Below are positions 34,001 through 41,321 of a DNA stretch of 64,000 nt, piece by piece. The first letter of the stretch is position 1. Each line of letters opens with the position of its first letter. Below the pieces are notes generated by a model. The model saw only the letters and a program-made list of their open reading frames with translations. It did no database searches and had not been told where the DNA came from. The DNA is taken from assembly GCF_003206065.1 (NCBI RefSeq), contig NZ_PZJQ01000004.1:1213965-1277964 (forward strand), written 5' to 3'. This DNA is from Salinicola halimionae (GTDB lineage Bacteria > Pseudomonadota > Gammaproteobacteria > Pseudomonadales > Halomonadaceae). Both the position numbers and the translations under genes were made by a program.

Positions 34001-35295
34001 ACGTGTAGCGAAAACGGCAGACCTGGTTCGAAGGCCTGCACTCGAGCATCGATCGCGGCTCTGGCTTCGCCGTCGGTGCGTAGTTTGACGTCGAGATCGG
34101 CGAGCGTGCCGGAAGCGTCGAGTGCAACCGTCTGCCCGTCGATCGGCGCCCGCGTGACGCGGCCATTCAGCGATAGCGAGAGCGGGATATCACCCTGCAG
34201 TTCGGCGCTCGCCGTGAGCTCGACGTGGCCGTCAGGGGCATCCACCATCAGTCTCTGTATCTCGATGTTGCGGTCAACGGCGGAGAACGCTAGCTCCAGC
34301 CGGTTCAGTTGCTGTGGGCTCGGCCCGTCGAGTCTGACATCGCTGATCGTCAGGCTGGGTGCCTCGACTTCCAGCGGCAGCTGAATGTCGGGTAGCTGCT
34401 GGCGAAGATCATGCAGCGTCTGCTCGATCCGTTCGACGCGAGCGTCGCGCTGCGAGGTATCCCCATCCGCCACGTTGGCCGCCGCGGCCAGCGTCAATGG
34501 CGCCAGTACGGCTGCCACCAGATCGTCGGAGTCAGCGTCGGCACCGGCTGTCGACGATGCGGCTCCAGAGGCGACAGTAGCCGGCGTCGCCGGAGACGCG
34601 GCGCGTTCGCCAGTCGCGTCCTCGTCGGCAGCCTGAACGGCCAGCGCCGCCTGCATGGCGTCCGGACTCACGACGCCGGGGCCAAGATCGGGCATGGCCA
34701 GCGCCTGGTCCGGGCTTTGCGGCAATCGAATGCGCGCCTGGTTCAGCGTCGTCGGCAGTAGCTTCAGGTGATTGCCGGCCATTTCGGCGCCGGTCTGGAA
34801 ATGCTGCCAATGAACGTCGGTGCCGTCGGCCAGTTGAACGCTGACGTCATCCAGCCGCACCTGGCGAATCTCGATCGGTAGCGGTACCGAGATCGAGGGC
34901 ATGCCGCTGTCGCCGTCCGTTTCGGGAGGCGGCGTCGGTTGCTGATCACTCTCGCTCATCCGGATACGCGCACCGACCACGCTCAGATCGTCGAGACACA
35001 CGCGTCCCTTGAGCAGGCAGTCATCGGCCCAGGCGAGGTGAAAGTGATCCACGGCCACATCCAGCGTGCCGGCCGACAGGTGCAACCCGTCGATGGTCAG
35101 CTCGTCGAGCGGGGCGCCCTCGAAACGCTGCGCCTCGACCCAGCCGCGCGACTGCGCCTGATCGAACAGCCAGTGGCTGCCCCAGGGAGACAGGCCCAGT
35201 CCGATGAGCGTCAGCACCAGGCCCAGTAGCCACAGGATCAGGAACAGCAGCAGCCGAATCAGAACTCCGGTCCGATGGAGAAATGGAGACGCCAA
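31078..35295 (-). CDS. tamB: Translocation and assembly module protein TamB
   Basis: Large AsmA-like protein anchored in the inner membrane that spans the periplasm and moves phospholipid or helps outer-membrane protein assembly together with TamA. It has 1405 residues, with a single helix at about 12-34 and a C-terminal DUF490/TamB domain ending [15 protein letters not shown]. The start is a TTG at 35295 directly behind GAGGAGG, overlapping the tamA 3' end by 37 bases. A long Ala/Asp/Ser-rich low-complexity insertion occupies about residues 205-300. Confidence 0.93.
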
Positions 35296-37100
35296 GAATC
35301 CTCCTCGTCGTCAAACGGGTGGGCGATATCGAAACGAATCGGCCCAACGGGTGAAATCCAGCGCACGCCAACACCGGCGCCGGTCTTGAGCTCATCTGGC
35401 CACCATTCGTCGAAGGCGTTGCCCGTATCGACGAACGTGGCGCTCCAGAAGTTGCCGGTCAGATGACGCTGGTATTCGACGCTGCTGGTCAACATGTGTT
35501 GGCCGCCCAGCAGTTCTCCATCATCGTTTTCCGGGGACAGACTTTCATAGGAGTAGCCGCGGATACTCTGATCGCCCCCGGCGAAGAAACGCAGCGACGG
35601 TGGCACCTTGTCGAAGGTGTTGGTGGCCATGGCGCCGCCGCCGATCCGACCGACGAAACGGTTTTCGCTACCCAGCATGCGCACCCACTGGGAATCGAAG
35701 GTGGTTCGCACGAAGCGAGCGTCCGAACCCCAGGATGGATCCGACCACTCCAGCGTCAGCTGCTGCTTGTCGCCCCAGCTCGGGAAGGTCTCGTTGCGCT
35801 TGCGGGTGCGCGACCAGCTGATGCCGGGATAGAGCAGCAGCACGGCGTCGTCCTGATCGGCCTGGGTAAAGTCTTCGTAAGTGGTCTGCCAGTAGAGATC
35901 CTGAATCCAGCCATTGGAAAACTCCCAGTGGCGTGCCAGCTGCACCGAGCTCTCGAAGCTCTTGGTGTCTTCGTTGTCGATGTTCTTGAGCCCGTAGCGA
36001 ACGCGGTAACTGTCCCGCAACGGGTTGGCGAGCGGAATCGTATATTCCCCGGAGACGCGCTGCTCCGGCGCCGAAAGAAACAGCGAGTTGGTCAGACTGT
36101 GGCCGTAACGATTGAGCCAGGGCATGGTCCAGGTGAACTGCGTTCGCGGACCGACGTCGGTGGCGTACCCCACCCCGACCTCGAACTGATGGCGATCCGC
36201 CGGCGTCAGTTCGACATCGACCGGCACGATCGTCGGCTGGCTGTCAGTCAATTCACGGGCCGCACTCAGGCCGGGGCCACCCATGACTTCGGTGCTATCG
36301 GCCGTCGTGTCACGCCCGGTTGCGGCGCTCCACCATCGGCTGGGCGGCGTCGGGGAAGCGTCTTCATTGACGCGCGGGCGCACCGCGACCCCGGCAAACC
36401 AGTTGGTTTGTCCCAGGTTCTGATTGAGCGTTGCCAGATCCCCGGCAATGTAGGGATCGCCCGGTTCGAACGGAATCATGTTTCTGAGCCGGCGCTGCTC
36501 GATCTGGCTGCCCTTGAAGTGAACGTTGCCGAAGCGATAGCGTGTTCCGCTATCGAAGTCGAGAAAGATGCGGGCGCTGTTCTCCCACGGCCGAACTTCG
36601 ATACGCTGCTGGCGAAAGCGCGAATTGAAGTAGCCTCGTTCCAGTGCCAGCGTGGAAATCTTCCCCTTGTAACCGTCGTAGCGCGAGTGCAGCAACGGGT
36701 CGCCGACCTTGAGCGGACTGCTCGCCATGACCTGCTCGAACGCCTCGTCCTGTTTGGCATCGCCCTCGAGCGAAAGATCGACCTGAGTGATCTGCGTGCG
36801 CTCGCCGGGTTTGATATCGATGACGACGCGTTTGTTATCCTCGTTGGGGTAACGGGTGGCGAGACTGGCGTTGTAGTAACCGAACGCCTGCAGTGCCTTC
36901 TCGGCACGATCACGTACCACGCCGTCGAGACGTTCGCGGGTGGCCTGGCTGTCGGCTTCCAGCTCCGAGAGAATGTCGACGACGTTCTTCGCCGGTGGGC
37001 CACTCAATCCCTTGACGGTGACATCGAGCGCCCAGGCATGCCCTGCCGCGGGTAGCACAAGGCACAGCAGTCCCATCCGTAGGACTCTAGCTTGAGACAT
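35259..37100 (-). CDS. tamA: Translocation and assembly module protein TamA
   Basis: Omp85-family outer-membrane barrel protein, 613 residues, partner of TamB. A signal peptide ends near residue 24 (GHAWALD). POTRA domains occupy about 25-260, with a Ser/Thr-rich insertion (DASPTPPSRWWSAATGRD) near 250, and the barrel follows with FFAGGDQSIRGYSYESL as the conserved Omp85 motif. The ATG at 37100 is behind GGAGG that overlaps the end of the upstream coiled-coil gene, so the three genes form an operon. Confidence 0.95.
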   Translation of the reverse strand: MSQARVLRMGLLCLVLPAAGHAWALDVTVKGLSGPPAKNVVDILSELEADSQATRERLDGVVRDRAEKALQAFGYYNASLATRYPNEDNKRVVIDIKPGERTQITQVDLSLEGDAKQDEAFEQVMASSPLKVGDPLLHSRYDGYKGKISTLALERGYFNSRFRQQRIEVRPWENSARIFLDFDSGTRYRFGNVHFKGSQIEQRRLRNMIPFEPGDPYIAGDLATLNQNLGQTNWFAGVAVRPRVNEDASPTPPSRWWSAATGRDTTADSTEVMGGPGLSAARELTDSQPTIVPVDVELTPADRHQFEVGVGYATDVGPRTQFTWTMPWLNRYGHSLTNSLFLSAPEQRVSGEYTIPLANPLRDSYRVRYGLKNIDNEDTKSFESSVQLARHWEFSNGWIQDLYWQTTYEDFTQADQDDAVLLLYPGISWSRTRKRNETFPSWGDKQQLTLEWSDPSWGSDARFVRTTFDSQWVRMLGSENRFVGRIGGGAMATNTFDKVPPSLRFFAGGDQSIRGYSYESLSPENDDGELLGGQHMLTSSVEYQRHLTGNFWSATFVDTGNAFDEWWPDELKTGAGVGVRWISPVGPIRFDIAHPFDDEEDSWRLHFSIGPEF

Positions 37101-37104
37101 CGGC

Positions 37105-38130
37105 TCAACCTCCGCCGCGCTGTAGGTTGGAAACGTTGGTGATCAGCGACGTCACGCGACGCGTCAGCTGAGCGCGACTGGCCTCGAGCGACCCCAGCCG
37201 TTCCCTGAGGTCGCGAATCTGGGACGCGCTGGCGCCGGTGGGCATATCGCTGATACGCGACTGCAACGATTCGAGACTCGCGCTGAGCGCGGTCTGGCCC
37301 TGGCGAAGTTCCGTGACCGCTCCCTTGAGTTGGTCGACGTCGTCCGCAGACGGAGACTCCTGCTGGGCCAGGGTACCGACTCGTGTCTCGAGCTTCGACA
37401 CCGTCGATTGCAGACCGTCGATTGCCGCCTGAACATCCGAATCATCCGTCGTCCCGAGCTGCTGCGAAAGCGCCTGCTGATCTTGGCGAAGTTGTTCGAT
37501 CGACGCGCTGAATTGGTCGGCTTGCTCTTGATTGGCCTGCTGCTGCCGATCGACGGCGTCACCGAGCGAAGCGAGTCGATCATCCCGCTGTTGCTGGCCT
37601 TCCTCGAGCGTGGCAAGTCGTGCTGTCATTGCGCCCCGCTCATCCTTGCCAGTGCTCTCCAGCGCGGTGAACGAGGACTGTAACGCCCCGATCAGCTCCC
37701 TGAGGTTCTGGTCGGTCTTCTGCAGCGATTCGAATTGCTCGGCCTTCTGGTCGCCCTGCCGGAAATCGGCGACTCGGGTTTCCAGACTGCCCACGGCGGC
37801 CTGAGTGCCATCGAGCTGATCGCGGAGGCGGTCGAATTCGGCGCGCAAGCTTTCACCGGATGCGTCCAGCGTCGAGCCGGTGGAATCCAGCCGCTGGTTG
37901 AGCCGGTCGATCTGCGCATTCTGCGCCTGCACTGTCTGCCAGAGTTGCCAGCCGCCTGCGCAGGCCCCGGCAATCAGCAACAGAAGCAGGATCCACAGCG
38001 GCCATACCCTGGGGGCACGACGGCCGCCGGCCCCTCGATAATGATGTGTCCCGGCCCTGGGCACCGTCATATCGTTGCGGTCGGGGACGATGCTCGGAGA
38101 AGCGCGATGCTCGTCGGATCGTGATGGCAT
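37105..38130 (-). CDS. Membrane-anchored coiled-coil protein upstream of tamAB
   Basis: A 341-residue protein that I cannot assign to a named family. A basic cytoplasmic N-terminus (residues 1-41) is followed by one strongly hydrophobic helix (42-62, WILLLLLIAGACAGGW) and a long, probably periplasmic, Gln/Ser/Asp-rich coiled coil (about 65-335) with repeated leucine heptads. The stop is 4 bases from the tamA start, so it is co-expressed with tamAB. A role as a periplasmic scaffold or partner for TAM is a guess from context. Confidence 0.8.
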   Translation of the reverse strand: MPSRSDEHRASPSIVPDRNDMTVPRAGTHHYRGAGGRRAPRVWPLWILLLLLIAGACAGGWQLWQTVQAQNAQIDRLNQRLDSTGSTLDASGESLRAEFDRLRDQLDGTQAAVGSLETRVADFRQGDQKAEQFESLQKTDQNLRELIGALQSSFTALESTGKDERGAMTARLATLEEGQQQRDDRLASLGDAVDRQQQANQEQADQFSASIEQLRQDQQALSQQLGTTDDSDVQAAIDGLQSTVSKLETRVGTLAQQESPSADDVDQLKGAVTELRQGQTALSASLESLQSRISDMPTGASASQIRDLRERLGSLEASRAQLTRRVTSLITNVSNLQRGGG

Positions 38131-38230
38131 GGCCGTCTTGTACCTTTCCGATAATGTTGCGGACGCCGATTCTGCGATCGAGATGATCTTCGACGCCTGG
38201 AATCTCGAACTGATGAAAATATGCCAAAAA

Positions 38231-38250
38231 GGTTCCTGTCGAGCGGAACC
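38231..38250 (-). terminator. Small terminator-like hairpin upstream of the coiled-coil gene
   Basis: On the minus strand, GGTTCC (38250-38245) and GGAACC (38236-38231) with an 8-base loop are followed directly by TTTTT. It lies about 100 bases before the start codon of the tamAB-linked gene, in a 350-bp divergent spacer (38131-38480) with no other recognisable feature. It could be an attenuator in the leader or a block to antisense transcription. Confidence 0.4.
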
Positions 38251-38480
38251 CGCAGAATGAAGGCTCAATGCCGCAAGCCGGGCGTAAACCGCTGACGCAA
38301 TTACGTTACGTGAAAGCCATCGCAAAGCCTAGGCTTGGCAGCGTACGGTTCGCATGATAACGGCCGCGGCCCCAATGCGTATCGCATTGGCGATCCGATC
38401 CCGGTTCGCGGTAGCATGCCCGCCGTCGGCCGATCTCTGTCGGACTCTTTTTCCGCTACTCCGTTCCTCTCCCACTGTCG

Positions 38481-39086
38481 ATGAATACGATGCCCCATTT
38501 CGCTTCCCGGTTCGAGTTGCCCGCGCTTCCCTTCGAGCGACATTCGCTGGAACCCGAGGTCTCCCGGGCACAGATCGACCTGCTTTACAGTCACCATCAT
38601 CGACGTCACATCGACGAGCTCAATGCGCAACTGGCTTCCGACGACGGGCGCTCACTGGCTGCGCTGGCAAAAGCCGAGGAAGCTGACGTGCGTGACTCGG
38701 CGCAGGAAGCCTGGAACCTGGTGTTCTTCTGGCATGGACTGAGCGCGCGAAGCGTGGAGATGCCGGAAAGGCTCGCCCGACGAATCGAGGCGGCCTTCGG
38801 TGGGATCGGCGGACTGCAGTGCCTATGGCGCGCACGGATCCAGGAAACCACCGCCGGATGGTGCTGGCTGGTGCTCGATTCCCGGAGCGGTCTGCGTCTG
38901 GCAACCTCGTCACCTGCCGAGTTACCGGATGATGTGACCCCGCTGCTGGGCATTGCCCTGGCCGACGAGGCCTATCGAATCGATCATCGACACGACCGTG
39001 GCGAGTATTTCGATGCGCTGTGGCCCCACCTGAACTGGGAGTATGCGCAACTCAACAGCGAGGTGGCGAGTCGAGCGCCGGTCTAG
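38481..39086 (+). CDS. Superoxide-dismutase-fold protein lacking all four metal ligands
   Basis: A 201-residue homologue of Fe/Mn superoxide dismutase along its whole length: FELPALPF start, GWCWLVLDSRSG, TPLL, IDHRHDRGEYFDALW and LNWEY end. The four metal ligands of E. coli SodB (His26, His73, Asp156, His160) align with Leu35, Leu80, Ala159 and Glu163. The gateway Tyr34 aligns with His43, and the WEHA motif reads ADEA. It should therefore not bind the catalytic metal. The reading frame is intact, so it is a probable pseudoenzyme rather than a decayed gene. It has no clear ribosome site; an alternative ATG is at 38490. Confidence 0.82.
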   Translation: MNTMPHFASRFELPALPFERHSLEPEVSRAQIDLLYSHHHRRHIDELNAQLASDDGRSLAALAKAEEADVRDSAQEAWNLVFFWHGLSARSVEMPERLARRIEAAFGGIGGLQCLWRARIQETTAGWCWLVLDSRSGLRLATSSPAELPDDVTPLLGIALADEAYRIDHRHDRGEYFDALWPHLNWEYAQLNSEVASRAPV

Positions 39087-39102
39087 CGTGACCGGCGCTC
39101 GA
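39071..39102. terminator. Strong hairpin between the SOD-like gene and the ugd homologue
   Basis: Perfect 13-bp arms TCGAGCGCCGGTC (39071-39083) and GACCGGCGCTCGA (39090-39102) enclose a 6-base loop that contains the SOD-like stop codon. The two flanking genes converge here. No T-run is present on either strand, so it may act as an RNA-stabilising end rather than a classical terminator. Confidence 0.5.
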
Positions 39103-39148
39103 GCTACAAAGTTACCGCCGGGGTTAGAACCCGGGCCAAGGCCCGCGA

Positions 39149-40429
39149 TCAGGCCCGGCGGCCGATACCCCGATAGACGAATCCTCGAGACGCCACGTAG
39201 GCCGGATCGTAGATGTTGCGGCCGTCCAGAATCAGCGGTGTCTTGAGCGCCTGCAGCAGACGTCTCCAGTCCGGATTCCAGTAGCATTTCCACTCCGTCA
39301 CCAGCATCAGGGCATCGGCCCCTTCACAAGCGCTGTAAAAGTCTCCTTCACATAGCTCGAGCTGCGGATGATCGGGATAGTGCGCGGCCAGTGCATGCAA
39401 GGCCGCCGGGTCATGTACCTTGACCTTGACGCCCTGCGCCCACAGCGCTTCCAGCAGCGTCAGCACCGGCGCGTGATCGATACGGGCGGTTCCCGGCTTG
39501 AACGCTGCCCCCCAGATGGCCACCGTGCGACCTTCCAGTTCACCCTCGAAATGGTTCCAGAGCTTGCGGAATAGCGTTTCTTTCTTGCTCTCGTTGATGT
39601 CTAGCACATGTTCGAGCAAGTGAGATTCGCGCCCCGTCGAGTGCTGCACGTCGGCCAGACGCACGAGGTCCCGGGAGAAATTGGGCCCACCGAACCCGCA
39701 GCCGGGATAGAGATATTCGAAACCGATACGCGTATCGGCGCCCATTCCCTGACGCACGTACTCGACATCGACGGCGAGTGAGTCGGCGAGGCCAGCCAGT
39801 TCGTTCATGAAGCTGATACGCGTTGCCAGCATGCCGTTGATGGCCAGTTTGGTCAGCTCGGCGGCACGACGCGGCATCAACTGGAACACTTCATGACGTC
39901 GGTTGAAGGCACGCAGCAGTTCACGGATCTGCTGAGTTCCCCAGTCGTCCTCGCTACCCAGCAGCCAATGTGCCGGACGAGTGAAGGTTTCCCAGGCGCG
40001 GCCCTCCTCGATGCGGTCCGGCAACGCCACGGCCACCTGCGAGGAGTGCCCCAACAGCGCTTCCAGCTTCTCTGTCTGGCCCACGGGAAACGTCGAGTTG
40101 TTGACGATGATCAGCGGCGAGCTTTGTCGCCCCGGCACCGCCGCAACGTAGCTCTCGGCGGCCTCGCGTTGATCCGGCGATAGTGCCAGCCAGTGAACAT
40201 CGGCCTCAGCATCGTCGGGGACGGCATCGACGATCACCAACTGTCCCGACTCCTGGCCGGCCTGAATCTGGTCCCTGAGGCCCGGTTCACTGATCAGCCA
40301 GTCGGCATTGGCCAGGCTTTCCCAGGGAAAGTCGGCATGTGGCATCCAGGTAACCTGATGCCCGACCGAGCACAACGCGGCGGCGGCAGTCGCCGCGGCC
40401 AGTTCGCTACCATGTACGACCACCCGCAT
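39149..40429 (-). CDS. UDP-glucose 6-dehydrogenase homologue with altered active site
   Basis: A 426-residue member of the UDP-glucose/GDP-mannose dehydrogenase family, encoded 4 bases after galU. The three-domain layout is recognisable: NSTFPVGQTEK, the catalytic Lys-Asn region AELTKLAINGMLATRISF (Lys194, Asn198), and GAAFKPGTARIDHAP. The catalytic cysteine of GGxCFxRD reads GGPNFSRD, so it is Asn250, and the NAD-binding GxGYxG near the N-terminus reads GSELAA. Oxidation of UDP-glucose by the normal thiohemiacetal route would be impossible. It may have another activity or a structural role; the usual product would be UDP-glucuronate for envelope polysaccharide. Confidence 0.8.
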   Translation of the reverse strand: MRVVVHGSELAAATAAAALCSVGHQVTWMPHADFPWESLANADWLISEPGLRDQIQAGQESGQLVIVDAVPDDAEADVHWLALSPDQREAAESYVAAVPGRQSSPLIIVNNSTFPVGQTEKLEALLGHSSQVAVALPDRIEEGRAWETFTRPAHWLLGSEDDWGTQQIRELLRAFNRRHEVFQLMPRRAAELTKLAINGMLATRISFMNELAGLADSLAVDVEYVRQGMGADTRIGFEYLYPGCGFGGPNFSRDLVRLADVQHSTGRESHLLEHVLDINESKKETLFRKLWNHFEGELEGRTVAIWGAAFKPGTARIDHAPVLTLLEALWAQGVKVKVHDPAALHALAAHYPDHPQLELCEGDFYSACEGADALMLVTEWKCYWNPDWRRLLQALKTPLILDGRNIYDPAYVASRGFVYRGIGRRA

Positions 40430-40433
40430 GGGT

Positions 40434-41321
40434 CTACTCCTCAGCCGCGTATTGCTGAATCAACTGACGGAAGCCTTCGCCCAGCTTCGGATGCTTCCGC
40501 CCCAGGGCCAATGTGGCTTCGAGATAGCCCAGTTGGCTACCGCAGTCGTAGGTTTGCCCCTGCATGCGGTAGGCGGCGGCACCGCTTTGTTTGCGCAGGG
40601 TTTCCATGGCATCGGTGAGCTGAATCTCGTTGCCCGCCCCCGGCGGCGTTTCTGCCAGGATCGGGAAGATTTCGCCCGGCAGCAGGTAGCGACCGATCAC
40701 GGCCAGCGTCGACGGCGCTTCCTCGACCTTGGGTTTCTCGACCATGCCGGTCAACGGTGCGCTTTCGCCAGCAGCTGGCTCGTCACCTTCGAGCGCGACG
40801 ATGCCGTACTTGTAAGTCAGCTCCTTGGGCACGGTCTCGACCATGATCTGGGCCTTGCCGGTCTCGTCGAAGGCCTTGATCATGCCCATCAGGTCGTTGC
40901 TGGCCATGCCGTTGTCGTCGATCACGACGTCGGGCAGCAGTACCGCAAACGGGTCGTTGCCGATGACCGGACGCGCGCAGAGAATGGCATGACCGAGGCC
41001 GAGAGCCTCTGGCTGGCGTACGCTGATGATATTGACGTCATCGGGGATGATATTGCGAAGTTCCTCGAGCAGTTCATCCTTGCCCTTGGCTTCCAGCTGC
41101 GTCTCGAGCTCGAAGTGCTTGTCGAAATGGTTTTCGATAGCGCTTTTCGACGAGTGCGTGACCAGGACGATTTCCTTGATACCGGCCTTCACCGCCTCGG
41201 TGACCACGTACTGAATCACCGGTTTGTCGACGATGGTGATCATTTCCTTGGGGATCGCCTTGGAAGCGGGCAAACAACGGGTGCCGAATCCGGCGACGGG
41301 CAGTACAGCCTTGCGAATCAT
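40434..41321 (-). CDS. galU: UTP-glucose-1-phosphate uridylyltransferase GalU
   Basis: Makes UDP-glucose for cell-envelope sugars, 295 residues. The nucleotide-binding motif is AVLPVAGFGTRCLPASKAIPKEM, cited here as GFGTRCLPASKAIPKEM, followed by VVTEAVKAGI and the VEKPK and YDCGSQLGYLEA motifs. It is upstream of, and presumably co-transcribed with, the ugd homologue. ubiG is divergent across 281 bp in which I see no other gene. Confidence 0.97.
   Translation of the reverse strand: MIRKAVLPVAGFGTRCLPASKAIPKEMITIVDKPVIQYVVTEAVKAGIKEIVLVTHSSKSAIENHFDKHFELETQLEAKGKDELLEELRNIIPDDVNIISVRQPEALGLGHAILCARPVIGNDPFAVLLPDVVIDDNGMASNDLMGMIKAFDETGKAQIMVETVPKELTYKYGIVALEGDEPAAGESAPLTGMVEKPKVEEAPSTLAVIGRYLLPGEIFPILAETPPGAGNEIQLTDAMETLRKQSGAAAYRMQGQTYDCGSQLGYLEATLALGRKHPKLGEGFRQLIQQYAAEE

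Follow-up and report, generated by a model that had tools for sequence, protein, structure and literature searches.

A SodB-fold protein lacking all four metal ligands at the sodB locus of Salinicola

The analysed window, a stretch of 64,000 nucleotides from Salinicola halimionae (contig NZ_PZJQ01000004.1), contains an open reading frame for a 201-residue protein with the fold of the iron superoxide dismutase SodB in which all four metal ligands are replaced. The frame begins with ATG and is open throughout (38481-39086, forward strand), and we refer to its product as pSOD. The explanation that we favour, with somewhat better than even confidence, is that sodB was converted in place to a metal-free pseudoenzyme and was kept for a second role in binding or scaffolding, exerted through its N-terminal and helix-1 face. 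The job of pSOD is probably different from dismutation, and non-catalytic.

The course of events that we envisage would have begun with SodA taking over dismutation. Second-sphere residues (Tyr34 and Gln69, in E. coli SodB numbering) would have changed next and the ligands after them, an order that we infer. The former metal site would have been plugged by Leu at 26, Leu or Met at 73, a small residue at 156 and an acid at 160, and the stripped protein would have been retained for its second function. The candidate surface for binding or scaffolding comprises the N-terminal arm and the first helix (window residues 18-41), and no redox chemistry would be involved.

The ligand positions and the predicted fold

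The original prediction, made by eye from the sequence, described an SOD-fold protein with an intact frame and four replaced metal ligands, and this description was borne out by the open reading frame, by Pfam, by phmmer and by a MAFFT alignment of pSOD with 29 other proteins of the locus and E. coli SodB. Residues 11-192 align with E. coli FeSOD (phmmer, E = 2.8e-30), and both alignments show the residue assignments to be correct, that is Leu35 for His26, Leu80 for His73, Ala159 for Asp156, Glu163 for His160 and His43 for Tyr34 (Table 1). No gap lies next to any ligand position or Tyr34 in either alignment, and the register is held by Trp78, Trp84, Trp129, Asn185 and Trp186. That the ligands are present but only shifted, which had been named as an outcome that would count against the prediction, is ruled out by the gap-free alignment around each of them and by the position of window His40, which stands opposite canonical His31.

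Table 1. Features at the pSOD locus, in window coordinates
Feature	Position	Strand	Basis, or residues found in Salinicola
tamA, POTRA_TamA_1, POTRA and Omp85 domains, synteny anchor	35259..37100	-	Pfam, tblastn
Coiled-coil protein with N-terminal hydrophobic stretch (by eye), divergent neighbour	37105..38130	-	ORF, tblastn
Composite element: YACGTTACGTGAAA (38302-38315), 9 bp, AAGCCTAGGCTTGGC (38325-38339)	38302..38339	+	Exact-match genome scans
Possible pSOD promoter: TTGGCA, 17 bp, TAACGG, TG before it	38335..38363	+	By eye, weak
pSOD, metal-free SodB-fold protein, 201 aa	38481..39086	+	ORF, Pfam, PDB homologues, AlphaFold2, synteny
Leu35 codon at Fe ligand His26	38583..38585	+	phmmer and MAFFT; Leu 18/18
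His43 codon at gateway Tyr34	38607..38609	+	His 10, Gln 7, Leu 1 (n = 18)
Leu80 codon at Fe ligand His73	38718..38720	+	Leu 14, Met 4 (n = 18)
Ala159 codon at Fe ligand Asp156	38955..38957	+	Ala 11, Thr 5, Ser 1, Pro 1 (n = 18)
Glu163 codon at Fe ligand His160	38967..38969	+	Glu 10, Asp 8 (n = 18)
Arg166 codon at canonical Tyr163	38976..38978	+	Arg 17, Ser 1 (n = 18)
ugd, UDP-sugar dehydrogenase, convergent neighbour and synteny anchor	39149..40429	-	ORF, tblastn
galU, synteny anchor	40434..41321	-	ORF, tblastn

None of His26, His73, Asp156 and His160 is present in any of the 18 Salinicola pSODs. Tyr34 is replaced in all of them, as is Trp158, and His30 is retained in 4/18, the window's protein among them; Tyr163 has become Arg in 17/18 and Gln69 has become Glu in 14/18. 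The same pattern of replacements recurs in all 18 genomes of the genus, so that neither chance nor a sequencing error accounts for the loss of the ligands.

Structure prediction, which had been proposed as a check of the SOD fold, agreed with it. The best AlphaFold2 model, built from an 18-row alignment, reached a pTM of 0.87 and a pLDDT of 91.1 (77.7-83.5 for the other four models), and its best Foldseek match was E. coli FeSOD 1isa (E 6.4e-17, TM 0.86/0.90), with a VIA-align Z of 26.8 against the same structure. The third Foldseek match was 2nyb, a Q69E mutant of E. coli FeSOD, in which this exchange has a redox effect. Both Pfam models are passed (Sod_Fe_N, 44.0 bits against a cut-off of 27; Sod_Fe_C, 51.2 bits against 20.9), and the NCBIfam [Fe] equivalog NF007832 is failed, at 109.4 bits against a curated cut-off of 348. 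Judged by its sequence, pSOD is a member of the SodFM fold family that lacks the ligands by which an active SOD is defined. Its metal site, now made up mostly of aliphatic or small residues, appears to have been repacked as part of the core.

The sodB locus in Salinicola and other Halomonadaceae

A scan for close relatives in 84,980 species genomes returned nine pSOD loci, every one in a record named Salinicola. Among 275 genomes of the family, an orthologue (51-100% identity) was found in 18/18 Salinicola, and the search of Halomonadaceae genomes suggested with the prediction thus revealed the same ligand loss throughout the genus. When a profile of the 18 members was run against 390 genomes drawn from the order, the two that belong to Salinicola scored 343.5 and 338.5 bits and the next best 152.7 bits, and from this gap the exact pSOD type appears to be restricted to the genus Salinicola.

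The neighbours are conserved as well, which had been another point to check. The four nearest anchors, the coiled-coil gene and tamA on one side and ugd and galU on the other, flank pSOD in 18/18 Salinicola loci, and tblastn recovered the order tamB-tamA-coiled coil (divergent), SOD, ugd-galU (convergent) in 16 other Salinicola loci; the names tamB, ugd and galU are those that we take these genes to carry from their sequences. The same flanks surround a ligand-intact SodB in 8/9 of the other family loci first checked, and in the ninth, G058, they are absent from its 9-kb contig. Since the tamA/sodB/ugd locus is shared with the canonical FeSOD, we read pSOD as an in-place descendant of the family FeSOD; on gene order, it is the Halomonadaceae sodB converted in place and not a duplicate. 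Indeed, a duplicate of an active SodB is rejected by the content of the window's genome, which has two Sod_Fe_C matches, pSOD and SodA, and is contradicted by the presence of pSOD at the canonical sodB locus itself.

The coiled-coil protein encoded between tamA and sodB is fast-evolving and in place across much of the Halomonadaceae, and no Pfam family scored above the cut-off among the matches listed for it. A role of this neighbour as a partner of pSOD is unsupported, as a relative of it lies near ugd in 48/60 loci without an SOD frame. At one ugd locus, L313 (G111:C1:2575756-2577038), the gene appears as two adjoining matches (residues 1-235 and 227-426), possibly through a frameshift.

SodB loci were gathered from 167/275 family genomes, and the 131 with tam/ugd flanks make up the locus table used here. 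The 36 without these flanks, some of them at contig ends, were omitted (35 canonical ones and G211). In G211 (L189), SodB lies away from the tam/ugd locus and carries D156G and H160N, and SodA is also present in the genome.

Among the 131 loci, 77 are canonical, 19 keep the ligands with a changed second sphere, and 35 have lost ligands: 31 lack all four (18 Salinicola and 13 others), three lack three, and one, G113, lacks two. In the three-ligand losses (G070, G071 and G082), an Asp aligns at 156 inside a rebuilt segment. The 16 non-Salinicola copies that lack three or four ligands replace His26 by Arg (13) or Leu (3), His73 by Leu (13) or Phe (3), and Tyr34 by Cys (12) or His (4), and are 181-203 residues long in 15 cases and 133 in one. 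Tyr34 is changed in 35/35 ligand-loss loci and also in 16 of the 19 second-sphere loci with intact ligands, which suggests that the change at the gateway, in the second sphere, precedes ligand loss.

Parallel losses in place are the simplest reading of the locus and the genome tree, though the SOD gene tree does not confirm their count. Trees of the flanking genes ugd, galU and tamA included 127/131 loci in one case and 91/127 in another; on the flanking-gene tree, the loss of at least three ligands needs at least four changes, or five with G113, and the flanking genes reject a single ligand-less clade (p-AU 1.07e-5 with all 27 rows, 1.8e-42 with the 15 non-Salinicola rows). The competing history, which leaves the pseudoenzyme reading untouched, is that a single ligand-less sodB lineage spread laterally and replaced sodB at the same locus elsewhere, and we regard it as possible but rather doubtful. 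It draws on the SOD gene tree, in which 27/27 ligand-less rows form one clade, with long-branch joins flagged by the program. Furthermore, once 11 trait columns were removed (IQ-TREE), a tree holding all vertical-descent groupings jointly was worse than the free tree (delta lnL 47, p-AU 0.012 under LG; delta lnL 29, p-AU 0.042 under C20), and the one-clade tree was not rejected (p-AU 0.21 under LG, 0.30 under C20). When lineages were placed alone, the Salinicola SOD went with G037/102 and not with its sister genus, and the G029 group joined no species neighbour. Against a single origin, in addition to the flanking genes and the long-branch joins, stand the three changes in the quick SOD tree without the 11 trait columns and the three vertical-descent groupings, each of which, held alone, scores above the free quick tree (p-AU 0.79, 0.81 and 0.62). 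Under both LG and C20, G070/71 goes with G037/102, its neighbours in the species tree, when placed by itself, and G033/59 joins G041/48/52 under C20, though not as a pair under LG. The ligand replacements are also unlike between lineages.

Selection, SodA and the possible role of pSOD

The prediction had taken the intact frame as a sign of selection on a retained protein that is no longer a dismutase, and had named a gene confined to one strain, with dN/dS near 1, as the finding that would tell against it. Neither is the case: the gene is present in 18/18 genomes, always with an open frame, and its dN/dS (Nei-Gojobori) is 0.11-0.30 in 13 Salinicola pairs, compared with 0-0.13 for SodA in the same pairs. 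Together with the confident prediction of the fold and with an upstream element that 16/18 genomes carry in a single copy, at pSOD, this supports the proposed selection. Ligand binding and a structural role, the functions put forward in the prediction, are candidates only. Pooled over six independent pairs, the ratio for Salinicola pSOD is 0.199, with bootstrap upper limits of at most 0.43. At the same locus it is 0.075 for canonical sodB (12 pairs), 0.165 where the ligands are intact and the second sphere is changed (6 pairs), and 0.335 (6 pairs) and 0.446 (3 pairs) in other ligand-less groups; single non-Salinicola pairs reach 0.51, and the interval of the recent pair G061/G106 extends to 1.07. 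The identity of pSOD within Salinicola (48-99%) is far below that of SodA (93-100%), pointing to weaker constraint than on the active enzyme. The constraint on pSOD is relaxed relative to the enzyme yet far from neutral.

The only other Sod_Fe_C gene of the window's genome is SodA, with its ligands intact. All 18 Salinicola genomes carry SodA elsewhere (93-100% identity, ligands intact in 18/18) as well as one Cu/Zn SOD. There are two SodFM matches in 17/18 of these genomes and three in G175, where the extra one (L107, G175:C3:588286-588909) is a second SodA-like gene of 59% identity. Between the window's genome (G000, sodA at L089) and its nearest relative, G180 (L105), the dS of sodA is 0.367, with 93% protein identity, far above the dS of 0.056 for pSOD, which suggests an allele replacement of sodA in one of the two. 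Outside Salinicola, the SodA ligands are intact in the nine SodA loci seen among the 16 ligand-less genomes.

SodA was called by best E-value, with genomes weaker than 1e-56 taken as lacking it (49 genomes) and those at 1e-62 or better as having it; four genomes without any SodA match lie outside the 131-locus table. SodA is present in the genome of each of the 35 loci that lost at least two ligands, and the 25 SodA-negative loci are canonical without exception, so that 54/106 SodA-positive loci are non-canonical versus 0/25 SodA-negative ones (Fisher 3.7e-7). Once phylogeny is allowed for, the association is non-significant: in 11 phylogenetically independent pairs SodA differs in the same way in 1-3 and in the opposite way in none (p 0.25-1), and the four independent pairs for ligand loss alone include no SodA difference. 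That SodA relieved or drove the decay of sodB is thus suggestive only.

Slow decay would do without any function for pSOD: sodB would be eroding after the takeover by SodA, and the intact frames would be survivors before loss. We consider this unlikely. In its favour, no SOD frame was found (E <= 0.01, within 1.5 kb) at any of 60 ugd loci in 59 family genomes whose SodB is elsewhere or that were covered in no other way, about 50 of these loci being of the close syntenic type and the rest more distant paralogues. The higher pooled dN/dS of 0.335 and 0.446 in the non-Salinicola ligand-less groups points the same way, as does the truncation of one of their 16 copies, the 133-residue one of G096, a genome that is 76% complete; the frame of this copy (L153) is broken or misassembled. 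Decay is opposed in Salinicola by the full-length frame in 18/18 genomes, by the low dN/dS with its bootstrap limits in all six independent pairs, and by neutral simulations, in which the share of runs that ended with a stop-free frame was 2% for 0.2 substitutions per site and 0.06% for 0.65. Residues that are invariant in the genus and non-canonical, and an upstream element unique to the locus, would also be unexpected under decay.

These residues direct attention to the N-terminal region. Residues 18-41 have the genus consensus FERHSLEP..SRAQ.DLLYSHYHR, which is fixed in Salinicola and unlike FeSOD, and 22 positions carry one and the same residue throughout Salinicola that is not the one most canonical proteins have; 12 of these 22 are among the first 31 of the alignment (hypergeometric P 8.7e-6). 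The patch may reflect folding alone, since FELPALP..LEP is conserved in canonical SodB too and invariant positions in general are dense in this region.

The upstream element consists of two halves (Table 1). The exact 14-mer YACGTTACGTGAAA occurs once per genome in 16/18 Salinicola, always just upstream of pSOD, and was not found in G174 and G179. In the 16 genomes its spacing to AAGCCTAGGCTTGGC is constant, and the second half has 0-2 mismatches in 15 of them and four in one. At the locus in other genera, only 2/113 come as close as nine mismatches over both halves, with exactly nine each. Exact matches of AAGCCTAGGCTT were present in 11/18 genomes and lay at pSOD, with a single additional site in the genome of the window, and no shared regulon appeared from the exact matches of the 14-mer and AAGCCTAGGCTT. 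The element has pSOD on one side and the divergently read coiled-coil/tam genes on the other, and may serve the latter instead of pSOD. A scan of the upstream region for sigma-70-type consensus sites found none, a search of 36900-40600 for RNA families yielded a single match, below the threshold (E 0.093), and the window contains no tRNA. Taken together, the N-terminal invariants and the upstream element argue for pSOD being expressed and used.

The use itself could lie elsewhere than on the face that we favour. pSOD might be the Fe/Mn-SOD counterpart of the copper chaperone CCS, pairing with SodA or aiding its maturation, which we think quite unlikely. E. coli forms a SodA/SodB hybrid dimer, which would offer a precedent for such pairing. 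The presence of SodA in 35/35 genomes whose locus SodB lost at least two ligands fits this proposal, but is expected anyway if SodA must supply dismutation. The positions that we take to be the classical dimer contacts of SODs, E159, H160 and Y163, are mostly replaced or deleted, although E159 is still Glu in 11/18 Salinicola. A parallel is in print, as far as the accessible part of the source goes, in a Cu/Zn SOD without its Cu site that became CCS (PMC13017621). Decidedly unlikely, in our estimate, is a new site in the emptied cavity, either for a small molecule or another metal or for the catalysis of another reaction. Polar residues do recur there, with an acid at 160 in 18/18, Arg at 163 in 17/18 and Glu at 69 in 14/18 Salinicola, and Cys at 34 in 12/16 non-Salinicola ligand-less copies. 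Positions 26 and 73, however, are aliphatic in Salinicola, so the cavity is filled rather than opened, and the His30, Tyr34, Gln69 and Asp156 positions vary within the genus, unlike a catalytic site. A wider conjecture, which we likewise rate as improbable, is that FeSOD has a second function that is exposed when SodA frees it from catalysis, and that conversion in place, through Tyr34 and Gln69 and then the ligands, has repeatedly led to a CCS-like metal-free protein acting on other proteins, possibly SodA.

Significance and comparison with known SOD-fold proteins

If the conversion of sodB to a pseudoenzyme is correct, a bacterial Fe/Mn-SOD pseudoenzyme would have its history laid out at one locus of one family, as canonical enzyme, second-sphere variants, partly stripped and fully stripped forms, and non-dismutase roles of SOD would become testable by simple genetics. 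On a practical matter, ligand-less genes can be miscounted as active SODs in surveys of metal use or oxidative stress, because all three ligand-less proteins tested pass both Pfam SOD models. The original prediction knew of no described bacterial counterpart, and this is not contradicted by the matches listed in the open-access literature, among which, in searches partly on other questions, there was no bacterial Fe/Mn-SOD pseudoenzyme. In the accessible part of a SodFM survey, the terms 'non-canonical', 'inactive' and 'mitoribosom' are absent (PMC10172142).

The closest relative of pSOD is SodB itself (NF007832/PRK10543; E. coli 1isa, 2nyb and 2bkb), to which it is tied by near full-length homology, the Pfam domains, the predicted fold and the locus, and from which it differs in the four metal ligands, Tyr34, Trp158 and Tyr163. 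Among its PDB matches are also the plastid RNA-polymerase subunits PAP4 and PAP9, SodFM proteins in the PEP complex (8qma, 9epc; 7bjk); 7bjk is titled as a chloroplastic Fe superoxide dismutase, whereas pSOD has 0/4 ligands.

The mitoribosomal proteins mS42 and mS43 have the SOD fold without a metal. Like them, pSOD would combine an SOD-like fold with the lack of dismutase chemistry, and mS42/mS43 are kept for a structural task. They are eukaryotic and ribosomal; pSOD is bacterial. In yeast, the two form a heterodimer at the mRNA exit and hold the 3' end of the 15S rRNA, and the accessible parts of the two reports do not mention SOD (PMC8998825, PMC9892005).

The loss of the Cu site from a Cu/Zn SOD gave rise to the copper chaperone CCS, and the Cu-less CSRP domains are likewise derived, according to the accessible part of the source (PMC13017621). 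pSOD resembles CCS and CSRP, as described there, in being an SOD minus its catalytic metal that is retained for another role. These proteins have the unrelated Cu/Zn-SOD fold and are found in eukaryotes, with added Cu-binding domains in CCS, in the same account (PMC13017621), whereas pSOD is bacterial and consists of a single Fe/Mn-SOD domain.
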